Shown: positions 47,554-64,000 of the stretch, piece after piece
Layout: each line of letters opens with the position of its first letter
How positions within the stretch are numbered: the stretch's first letter is position 1
Assembly (NCBI RefSeq): GCF_001905465.1
Contig: NZ_LISX01000001.1
Coordinates: 1-64,000, forward strand
Direction of reading: 5' to 3'
DNA from: Kitasatospora sp. CB01950
GTDB lineage: Bacteria; Actinomycetota; Actinomycetes; Streptomycetales; Streptomycetaceae
DNA: 64,000 nucleotides
Program-made: the position numbers and the translations under genes
The notes under the pieces: model-generated
What the model was told of the DNA's origin: nothing
What the model saw: only the letters and a program-made list of their open reading frames with translations
Databases searched by the model: none

Positions 47554-47678
47554 TTATCCACAGGGTTGTCCACACTGGGGAAAACTTCCGCCAGTCCTGT
47601 GGATAACTCGCAACGAAGCAGGATAACGCGCGTAGACCAGGGAAATCCAATCGCCCGCCGCGCACCTCTTGTGGACAG
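47554..47678. promoter_or_regulatory. Cluster of four DnaA-box-like sites
   Basis: In the 260-bp crgA/rhomboid intergenic region are TTATCCACA (47554-47562), TTGTCCACA (47566-47574), TGTGGATAA (47598-47606) and TGTGGACAG (47670-47678). The two middle sequences flank an A-containing patch. The density is far above chance at this GC content, and it is about 16 kb from oriC. It may titrate DnaA or regulate the flanking genes; this is inference. Confidence 0.7.
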
Positions 47679-50383: not shown

Positions 50384-50389
50384 ATCGAG

Positions 50390-50462
50390 TGGAGCCTAGG
50401 GGAGTCGAACCCCTGACATCTGCCATGCAAAGACAGCGCTCTACCAACTGAGCTAAGGCCCC
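50390..50462 (-). tRNA. tRNA-Ala (TGC)
   Basis: 73 bases. Acceptor GGGGCCT pairs with AGGCTCC including a G-U pair, the D-arm is typical, anticodon TGC lies in the loop TTTGCAT, and the T-arm is AGGGGTTCGACTCCCCT. CCA is not encoded. With tRNA-Ile it forms the tRNA pair conserved beside gyrA. Confidence 0.96.
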
Positions 50463-50964: not shown

Positions 50965-51882
50965 CTATCCGCGACGACGCCTGCGCAGAAGGGCGACATC
51001 CCGCCGGATCGCCCGGACGTCCTCGCTCAGCGCGTCCAGCCGGCCGCCGTGGGCGTCCAGCCGCGACTCCTGCCGGGCGACCCGCGCACTGATCGCGGAG
51101 ATCACCACGCCCTGCGCCTCCAACCGCCGGTCGACCGACCCGAGCGCGTCGACCAGCTCGGCGACATCCACCCACTCCTCCCCCACCGGCGGCGCGGCCG
51201 GCAGGCACTCCTCGAGCGGCTCCAGCCCGTCGATCCGCCGCCGCCACGCCGCCACGGCCGGATCCCGCCGCACCGCTTCCTCCTCGTCCCACCGCAACTC
51301 GCTCCACCGCTTCCACGGCCGCGCCCGGAACGGCCGTACCCCCGGCGGCTCCGCGGCCCGCTCGACCAGATCGAGCAGCCGGCTGCGGACCGCACGGGCG
51401 ACCTCGCTGTCCCGCAGCAGCATCGCGACGTTCAGCACGGCCCGCGGCGAGTACAGCGCGACACCGTTCCCGCCGCCCTGGGGACGACGCCCGGCGGGGC
51501 CTTCCGGGTCGCTGACCTGCCAGACCTTCATCTTGAAGGTCTGGTCGGCCGAGTTATCCACAGGGCTCACGGACGGATCGCCCGCTTCCGCCTGCGGCAG
51601 GCCACCGACCTGCCAGAGTGACACCTTGTCACTCTGGTGGCCGGGGTTGTCCACAGGCTTGAGGACGGTGTACCCGTTGCTCTCCAACTCCTGGCGGTGG
51701 CGCCGGACCATTTGCCGCAGGACGTTCTCACCGACCCCGAAGTAGTCGGCGACCATCCGCGTGGTGACGTGCAGCCCGTCGGGCAGCAGGACGAGGGCCT
51801 TGACCTCGTCAAGGACTTCGGTGCGCTCGCACAGGCCGCTTCGGAGTGTCCTGGATTCGAGCAGGGCGGCTTCCATGGACAT
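50965..51882 (-). CDS. Phage antirepressor-like protein with internal palindromic repeats
   Basis: A 305-aa protein of unknown function. The N-terminal part (about 25-75) resembles a winged or antirepressor-type DNA-binding region (VTTRMVADYFGVGENVLRQM). Residues about 118-170 contain LYSPRAVLNVAMLLRDSEVA, a block shared with Rha/KilA-type regulators of Streptomyces. Between them lie two copies of a PVDN...WQV segment (about 76-125) encoded by palindromic DNA. The C-terminus (about 245-305) is a predicted coiled coil ending in poly-Arg. ATG at 51882 has GTGAGG upstream. No phage genes adjoin it, so this is probably a domesticated or chromosomal regulator. Confidence 0.7.
   Translation of the reverse strand: MSMEAALLESRTLRSGLCERTEVLDEVKALVLLPDGLHVTTRMVADYFGVGENVLRQMVRRHRQELESNGYTVLKPVDNPGHQSDKVSLWQVGGLPQAEAGDPSVSPVDNSADQTFKMKVWQVSDPEGPAGRRPQGGGNGVALYSPRAVLNVAMLLRDSEVARAVRSRLLDLVERAAEPPGVRPFRARPWKRWSELRWDEEEAVRRDPAVAAWRRRIDGLEPLEECLPAAPPVGEEWVDVAELVDALGSVDRRLEAQGVVISAISARVARQESRLDAHGGRLDALSEDVRAIRRDVALLRRRRRG
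51514..51657. repeat. Two in-frame 51-bp units, each a perfect palindrome plus a DnaA-box-like motif
   Basis: Units at 51514-51564 and 51607-51657 (93-base period) match at 37 of 51 positions. Each has a 25-base palindrome with perfect 11-base arms and a 3-base centre (51520-51544 and 51613-51637), a 9-base spacer, then TT(A/G)TCCACAGG. Four arm positions differ between copies and all four are compensated, so the pairing is kept while the sequence changes. Confidence 0.9.
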
Positions 51883-52159: not shown

Positions 52160-52165
52160 CGCCGG

Positions 52166-52239
52166 TGGGCCTAACAGGACTTGAACCTGTGGCCTCTTCC
52201 TTATCAGGGAAGCGCTCTAACCGTCTGAGCTATAGGCCC
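52166..52239 (-). tRNA. tRNA-Ile (GAT)
   Basis: 74 bases. Acceptor GGGCCTA pairs with TAGGCCC, the anticodon loop CTGATAA carries GAT, and the T-arm is ACAGGTTCAAGTCCTGT. The gene is leftward like tRNA-Ala, about 1.7 kb away. Confidence 0.96.
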
Positions 52240-63737: not shown

Positions 63738-63996
63738 TTGTCCACAGATTCGGGCCACCCCCACTGTTGATCAAGTCACCTGGTCTCTATGTGTAGCAGT
63801 AGTAGTAGGGCCTGTGGATACCGTGGATAACCCTGTTTCCGCAGGTCAGAGCAGGTTTTTTGTCCACAGTGACTGTGGACGGCCGCTGTGGACAAGCAGG
63901 GCCTGCTGTGGACAGCGGAGCGTAATCCACAGGGCACCCTCGGTATCCACAGGTTGTCCCCAGGTTCATCCACAGAAATCGTCCGGGTTATCCACG
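63738..63996. other. oriC: Origin of replication (oriC), partial: DnaA-box array
   Basis: About twelve DnaA-box-like nonamers lie within 260 bases. Perfect TTGTCCACA boxes are at 63738, 63860 and, inverted, 63887. One-mismatch forms include 63813, 63822, 63874, 63907, 63923, 63943, 63954, 63966 and 63988. Boxes near 63813-63915 are mostly inverted and those from 63923 onward mostly direct. The gene-free stretch from 63545 to the window end (456 bases) is the dnaN side of the dnaA-dnaN intergenic origin; dnaA lies beyond the edge. Confidence 0.93.
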
Positions 63997-64000
63997 GGCG

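Follow-up and report, generated by a model that had tools for sequence, protein, structure and literature searches.

A KilA-N-like regulator gene near the replication origin of Streptomycetaceae contains a palindrome predicted to be the operator of its own product

Why would a regulator gene carry, inside its own reading frame, two long palindromes that are each followed by a DnaA-box-like sequence? The question is raised by a window of 64,000 nucleotides from Kitasatospora sp. CB01950 (contig NZ_LISX01000001.1, positions 1 to 64,000), which is the whole stretch of DNA analysed here and contains a gene for a KilA-N/antirepressor-like DNA-binding protein with two such units, A and B. The answer that we favour, with rather better than even confidence, is that the palindrome of unit A is the operator of the gene's own product and serves intragenic autorepression, likely tied to DnaA near the origin oriC. 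Physical binding, dimer formation, roadblock autorepression and a role of DnaA are all inferred here from sequence. The gene and its two units are located as follows.

50965..51882, minus strand: gene of the KilA-N/antirepressor-like DNA-binding protein, 305 amino acids with a long C-terminal helix (open reading frame (ORF), phrog_2286 match, AlphaFold, Foldseek)
51613..51637, no strand: palindrome of unit A, CCAGAGTGACA-CCT-TGTCACTCTGG, predicted cognate operator (code score +2.92, clade left out of training)
51638..51646, no strand: spacer of unit A, 9 bases (sequence)
51647..51657, plus strand: DnaA-box-like TTGTCCACAGG of unit A, PVDN on the minus strand (sequence)
51520..51544, no strand: palindrome of unit B, CCAGACCTTCA-TCT-TGAAGGTCTGG, non-cognate for the window helix (code score -9.31)
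51545..51553, no strand: spacer of unit B, 9 bases (sequence)
51554..51564, plus strand: DnaA-box-like TTATCCACAGG of unit B (sequence)

A preliminary description of this DNA had reported two perfect palindromes in frame, and they were found exactly as claimed: each dyad consists of two arms around a short centre (11+3+11), 9 spacer bases and TT(A/G)TCCACAGG come after it on the plus strand, and the two dyads lie 93 bases apart. The arms differ between the units at four positions, with the partner base changed in every case. The same description spoke of 51-bp units; there are indeed two repeated units, but their natural lengths are 45 bp, when counted as dyad, spacer and box, and 58 bp, which is the length of the aligned direct repeat that spans the units. 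Because the gene lies on the minus strand, the dyads encode QSDKVSLW and QTFKMKVW. When synonymous codons were redrawn, full pairing arose in 1,678 of 200,000 redraws for unit A and in 36,878 of 200,000 for unit B, so the palindromy of this single gene, taken alone, is suggestive; it becomes conclusive once the dyads of the whole family are counted.

For this count, 146 distinct genes were taken from the fetched loci, of which 144 could be anchored on the conserved VAxYF motif and two were lost for want of the anchor. A dyad with a 3-nt loop and at least 7 of 9 inner pairs (loop-3 dyad) was present in 126 of the 144 genes, at two fixed positions just past the helix-turn-helix (HTH): offset 127 in 101 genes (class A) and offset 115 in 25 (class B). 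Palindromy is thus maintained at the DNA level among relatives, as had been expected. On average 7.97 of 11 pairs were formed at offset 127, compared to 5.43 after synonymous recoding, and all 11 pairs were formed in 39 of the 144 genes, compared to 0.5% after recoding. At offsets 112, 118, 121, 124, 130 and 139, none of the 144 genes reached 9 pairs. The dyad at the fixed site was the best or tied loop-3 dyad of its gene in 116 of the 144 cases, and the single best in 101. Among the 126 dyads, 14 have at least 13 perfect arm pairs, and the inner hexamer is fully paired in 95, in 26 forms such as GTGACA, GGTCCA, CCTCCT and TGGTCA. A protein-level repeat was also considered as the conserved feature and rejected: the encoded residues vary between genes, third codon positions are poorer in G+C inside the dyad (0.669 versus 0.873), and the best dyad of some phage contigs falls in a different frame (offsets 125, 129 and 131).

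The palindrome might instead work as an mRNA hairpin that controls translation or transcription of the gene, one of the options raised in the preliminary description. Stems of at least 11 pairs with a 3-nt loop would fold strongly, and compensatory changes are abundant, but selection for a hairpin in the sense strand would spare G.U mismatches, and such a preference is nil. The chromosomal dyads contain 77 mismatches in 1,134 cells, among them 23 G.U and 22 A.C, and the dyads of the phage relatives described below contain 23 G.U and 31 A.C in 495 cells. RNA pairing also does not predict the covariation with the recognition helix that is described next, and we regard a hairpin as very improbable. 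Judged by the mismatch types, the dyad is a feature of the DNA and not an mRNA hairpin.

The preliminary description had held that pairing and not sequence was selected. The sequence does differ between genes, but it tracks the recognition helix of the same gene. The relevant parts of the window protein are listed here.

51739..51762, minus strand: first helix of the predicted HTH, residues 41-48 (AlphaFold model)
51700..51729, minus strand: predicted recognition helix, residues 52-61, ENVLRQMVRR (AlphaFold and covariation)
51472..51648, minus strand: linker, predicted disordered, residues 79-137, which houses both dyads (AlphaFold predicted local distance difference test (pLDDT) below 50)
51352..51462, minus strand: conserved block VALYSPRAVLNVAMLLRDSEVA.., residues 141-177, after the linker (alignment and AlphaFold)

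The covariation set consisted of the 126 dyad-bearing genes, and the resulting code is therefore silent on the other 18. With the dyad codons masked, well-filled protein columns were compared with nine half-site positions, and the four strongest corrected pairs were residue 57 with position 3, residue 56 with position 6, residue 61 with position 1, and residue 53 with position 5. Residue numbers are those of the window protein; the covariation runs, with a start codon two residues later, counted two lower (51, 54, 55, 58 and 59). The HTH is modelled confidently by AlphaFold (mean pLDDT of the blocks 92-95), and in this model residues 53, 56, 57 and 61 share one face of the predicted recognition helix, which in the window protein carries N53, R56, Q57, R60 and R61. 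The C-terminal helix residue corresponds to the innermost half-site base. Among the resolved cells, R61 goes with A1 (83 of 84) and D61 with T1 (24 of 25); Q57 (32 of 32) and K57 (20 of 21) go with A3, and N57 with T3 (7 of 7); R56 (50 of 52) and K56 (26 of 26) go with G6, and Y56 (12 of 12) and E56 (10 of 10) with C6; and K53 goes with C5 (22 of 22). All 32 genes with R56 and Q57 have GTGAC. The code is not one to one, because S57 is found with C or T, N56 with G, A or T, and E53 with G or T. Common descent was controlled for by means of 63 disjoint closest pairs of genes, 28 of which differ at half-site positions 3-6. Residues 53, 56 and 57 ranked first to third of 161 columns for co-change with the half-site (p 9e-9, 3e-7 and 3e-6), and the half-site had changed in 27 of the 36 pairs in which at least one of these residues was altered and in 1 of the 27 pairs in which none was.

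The code, trained on chromosomal genes, was also applied to phages. A relative was present in 60 of 50,697 phage records, mostly from phages of Gordonia (33) and Mycobacterium (14) and mostly annotated as antirepressor, and a scan of viral contigs gave 80 more loci. After 24 phage ORFs whose ends or anchor did not match the pattern had been dropped, the best linker dyad was taken in the remaining 63 genes; at least 8 of 10 pairs were formed in 50 of these, and the 13 below this level were left unscored. The 45 distinct combinations of helix and site scored +151, compared to a mean of -346 for shuffled combinations and -194 for the best of 1,000 shuffles; the best shuffle restricted to the same residue 61 scored -50. 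Examples are Gordonia phage Yeezy, whose IRQ helix accompanies AGTGACA, and L243 and L278, in which D61 accompanies T1. Based on the covariation, the phylogenetic contrasts and this phage prediction, we predict that each protein binds the palindrome within its own gene.

Before units A and B were scored, the 12 genes of the Kitasatospora clade were excluded from the training of the code. Unit A then came out as the predicted site of the window helix, and the unit B dyad suits the Y56/S57-type helices of sister genes; 8 of the 12 clade genes contain a unit that scores above 0 for their own helix. The protein P0001, available as protein sequence only, is 93% identical to the window protein and encodes the same two segments, but has the helix EKAVYSLVGRH instead of ENVLRQMVRRH, and this is the helix type that the code pairs with unit B. 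From the protein sequences we infer that specificity has changed while both operators stayed in the gene, and unit B is most likely a spare or fossil operator left by such a change.

The same observations bear on the possibility that phage regulators were domesticated to give the chromosomal copies, with dyads that work in trans, either as decoys or by blocking incoming phages of the same specificity, and with spare units stored as alternatives. Phage antirepressors obey the same code, P0001 combines another helix with the same two segments, and the two inner half-sites differ in each of the 14 paralogue pairs counted within single genomes (the pairs come from 19 genomes that were grouped by hand, and the count covers neither pairs with a member beyond the 126 genes nor the copies at L029). 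Domestication leaves the DnaA boxes and the origin-proximal position discussed below unexplained, and outside the 14 pairs the truncated inverted copies at locus L029 of genome G002 share the half-site TAGTGGTCA with the intact gene L135. We consider this explanation decidedly unlikely.

Sites matching the dyads are rare. Each of the 9 phage records has a single AGTGACA-type dyad that is exact or has one mismatch. All 10 Streptomyces genomes with the corresponding helix contain a single exact copy of the GAGTGACA-type dyad; 4 genomes outside those ten contain no exact copy, one of these four having a 1-mismatch site and another a 2-mismatch site. The AAGGTCCA-type dyad has one exact copy in 6 of 6 genomes and none in 2 others. 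By coordinates, the exact match (in phages, the best match) was the intragenic site in 25 of 25 genomes or records, for two specificities. A reversed control pattern gave 0 to 3 matches per genome, and the weaker extra sites occur near that level. These searches also bear on the suggestion, made in the preliminary description, of a mobile palindromic element that coding DNA tolerates, and likewise on a self-copying one. As that description had anticipated, relatives differ in unit number: in a simple pattern count, one to three PV(D/E)N...WQ units were found in 32 of 120 listed relatives (out of 430), 28 of these 32 bearing a Kitasatospora name, and most other listed relatives have a shorter linker with a single segment such as ESDNMSLS or SFNMKLTQV. 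Extra dyads in some flanks would also suit a mobile element. However, the window's own genome contains no second unit A within three mismatches, unit B without its box, sought in 124 kb only, matched itself and one site with three mismatches, and the third match of the box-plus-CCAG pattern, in a stretch that is partly N, shows no dyad arm longer than 6 within 80 nt. Moreover, the position of the dyad is fixed in homologues and its sequence tracks the helix, which makes a mobile element barely probable.

How might an operator inside the gene of its own repressor work? The disordered linker would be a place able to house an arbitrary DNA site, and the HTH and its presumed target DNA are encoded together, the target lying about 20 codons downstream of the HTH. 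A dimer on the dyad would hold up RNA polymerase near nucleotide 258 of the gene and lower expression of the gene whatever its promoter, and DnaA bound alongside the dimer would make this block DnaA-dependent. With helix and operator within about 120 bases, recombination would move both together.

Several observations weigh against such self-directed repression. No good dyad is present at either offset in 18 of the 144 genes; L177-L179 and L181, for example, look dyad-free there. Within the Kitasatospora clade, 4 of the 12 genes (L007, L008, L011 and L012) lack a unit scoring above 0 for their own helix, and unit B is fully paired in 18% of recodings from the amino acids alone. The fifth-ranked covarying pair, residue 140 with position 8, lies off the helix. 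Further sites exist as well: sites with three mismatches in 3 of the 9 phage records, one further 2-mismatch site in 4 of the 10 GAGTGACA-type genomes, and a 2-mismatch site in 2 of the 6 AAGGTCCA-type genomes. Further copies with the same inner six bases occur within 1.5 kb in 4 of the 126 genes (two just past the stop codon in L016, and one on either side in L033, L097 and L098), and a pure intragenic roadblock needs none of these. Finally, autorepression alone leaves the origin-proximal position unexplained.

Separately, extra loop-3 dyads, with the gene's own or another half-site, were seen in the flanks of L016, L033, L097, L098, L094, L052, L083 and L137.

The preliminary description had also proposed a site that pairs the dyad with DnaA, and at the level of sequence the combination of dyad and box recurs widely. 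Of the 101 class A chromosomal genes, 78 have an outward-reading TTNTCCACA, the DnaA-box consensus, that starts 21-33 nt away from the centre of the dyad, compared to 0.5% after synonymous recoding; weighted for similarity, the count is 47.1 of 63.1. On the right the box lies at 21 nt (46 genes), 24 nt (3), 30 nt (6) or 33 nt (11) and is nearly always encoded as SYPQ or GYPQ. Its position on the left is 22 nt (12 genes), with PVDN as the usual encoding, which is also that of the window gene. About one helical turn separates the two groups of distances. Within the Kitasatospora clade, the box is present in 17 of 19 units, and CCTGTGGA[TCA]AAC in 22 of 24 PVxx codon sets. A confinement of DnaA boxes at dyads to Kitasatospora was considered and rejected, as most class A genes have them, encoded as SYPQ or GYPQ on the other side of the dyad. 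Around class B dyads there is no box within 45 nt (25 of 25 genes), and the phage dyads have no near box (50 of 50). From this distribution, the most likely course is that the chromosomal lineages acquired the box, on either side of the dyad and in two reading frames.

Distances of about 13-98 kb separate the family genes from dnaA in 26 of the 27 genomes that were picked for few contigs; G156 (about 2.7 Mb) is the exception. In 9 genomes such genes stand on both sides of dnaA. The DnaA domain of the window's contig is encoded at 65103-65588, 13 kb from the window gene, and the presumed origin is positioned as follows.

63738..64000, no strand: left portion of the cluster of DnaA boxes taken as oriC (further boxes to about 64310, outside the window)

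A serious rival to autorepression is that dyad and DnaA box form a cis-acting site for replication control, titration or partition, placed in the gene of the protein that binds it; there, protein and DnaA would jointly affect the firing or tethering of the origin, with control of expression in second place. The AT content does not favour this, as it is 0.30-0.36 in 20-nt bins within 80 nt and 0.45-0.51 on the dyad only, leaving no AT-rich stretch beside it. Most genes contain a single dyad and no iterons, the 50 phage dyads do without a near DnaA box, and the gene has an HTH/cro-like gene on one side and an excisionase gene on the other in 8 of the 14 annotated phage regions that were fetched. 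All in all, we judge a replication-control site unlikely as the primary function.

Other DnaA-box-like sequences were noted in passing. A second one, facing the dyad 160-187 nt past its centre and encoded as PVDN or PVEN after an LLDxxE block, occurs in 40 of the 126 genes (19 of 25 in class B and 21 of 101 in class A). In L030, L031, L093, L149 and L166, terminator-like palindromes made of two facing DnaA-box-like sequences lie no more than about 60 bases past the stop codon. Three such sequences at window positions 47554-47606, and four at about 18955-19045 of L292 (contig 102955-103045), stand apart from the cluster taken as oriC.

Returning to autorepression, a broader proposal, which we hold with a little less than even confidence, is that these genes form a self-addressed class: a KilA-N-type protein whose only strong genomic target lies in its own frame, with a readable code, fast-diversifying specificities and spare operators in tandem, used as an immunity switch in phages and, in Streptomycetaceae, in a version with oriC and a DnaA box. 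If this is true, exchange of a 10-residue helix would switch specificity, with self-control kept by the tandem spare operators in the disordered linker, and phages would use the gene as a self-limiting switch in their immunity region. In Streptomycetaceae the gene would have been relocated to oriC and tied to a DnaA box at fixed helical spacings, so that DnaA and the gene product together read the switch. Every sequenced member would then be a ready-made protein-DNA pair, since the helix and the DNA that it reads come in one gene, and sequence alone would yield the specificity code of a common, uncharacterised class of phage antirepressors. The family would also document, in nature, how a regulator can acquire a new specificity and still control itself, and the dyad-plus-DnaA-box arrangement around the Streptomycetaceae origin would make the link between this protein and replication control directly testable.

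The window gene is flanked by tRNA-Ala (50389-50462) and tRNA-Ile (52164-52239) genes. Its protein matches phrog_2286 with E 1.7e-8 and has no Pfam match over the cut-off, and NCBIfam gave nothing for the four proteins tested. Foldseek against the PDB gave nothing at E <= 0.001, and the solved structures matched by sequence are of coiled-coil type and match the C-terminal part. Of the 7,993 candidates scored in a protein search, 430 were relatives at E <= 0.001. A family member is present in 38 of 70 Kitasatospora and 64 of 150 Streptomycetaceae genomes, and a survey of the phylum gave a match in 3 of 149 genomes, all three within Streptomycetaceae.

Some members are unusual in structure. P0093, P0102, P0114 and other Streptomyces proteins are fused to a restriction-endonuclease-type domain, PF04471 (Mrr-type), and some also to PF13156. 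The locus L029 mentioned above (G002:C1, about 3961127-3961641) is a near-perfect inverted repeat whose midpoint coincides exactly with the dyad. Its arms span at least 1,153 bases, with 15 mismatches, and the repeat yields two head-on truncated genes; it is either an inverted duplication at the palindrome or an assembly error. On plasmid pDSM3922.1 of Alicyclobacillus, a member (L191) lies between a CHC2 zinc-finger gene and dnaN, and its dyad, with 11-bp arms five bases apart, is at the class B offset.

Among known systems, the KilA-N/ORF6N/BRO antirepressors show a partial likeness in predicted fold and domains: viral KilA-N proteins match the predicted fold of the window protein in the Foldseek viral library (E 4.4e-5 and 4.8e-4), and of six phage or plasmid relatives three have an ANT domain over the Pfam cut-off (best E 1.8e-21) and three a sub-threshold ORF6N match. 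They differ in their C-terminus, as Pfam found no ANT/KilAC domain in the window protein, and the chromosomal members covered here have a long C-terminal helix or an Mrr-type nuclease domain in place of ANT. A literature search that left out subscription papers and preprints showed, in the parts of the sources that it covered, no recognisable operator in an antirepressor gene matched to the encoded helix. Intragenic repressor operators exist, for example lac O2 and gal OI, in target genes of one regulator. The family resembles these in having an operator within the coding sequence, which would likely act by roadblock or looping, and differs in that the operator lies in the regulator's own gene, family-wide and with many specificities. 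DdrC of Deinococcus radiodurans, whose gene adjoins dnaA, has an N-terminal domain that structurally resembles model m8e7bc2f591da at 17% identity, and is absent among the best 50 matches listed for a second model. The gene ddrC is dr0003 (PMC5436757).

The nearest precedent in the consulted sources for a DNA-binding protein with its target in its own gene is the O protein of phage lambda. The specificity of O differs between lambdoid types. According to PMC4488673, the DNA-binding domain of O comes first and its own target lies inside the same gene, and the lambda origin consists of four 19-bp iterons and an AT-rich segment. The family genes differ from this in having mostly one palindrome with a 3-base centre and no AT-rich neighbour; with neither iterons nor an AT-rich flank, an origin of the lambda type becomes less likely. 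The likeness is that here, too, a site for the encoded protein is predicted within its own gene, as suggested by covariation and by the performance of the code outside its training set.
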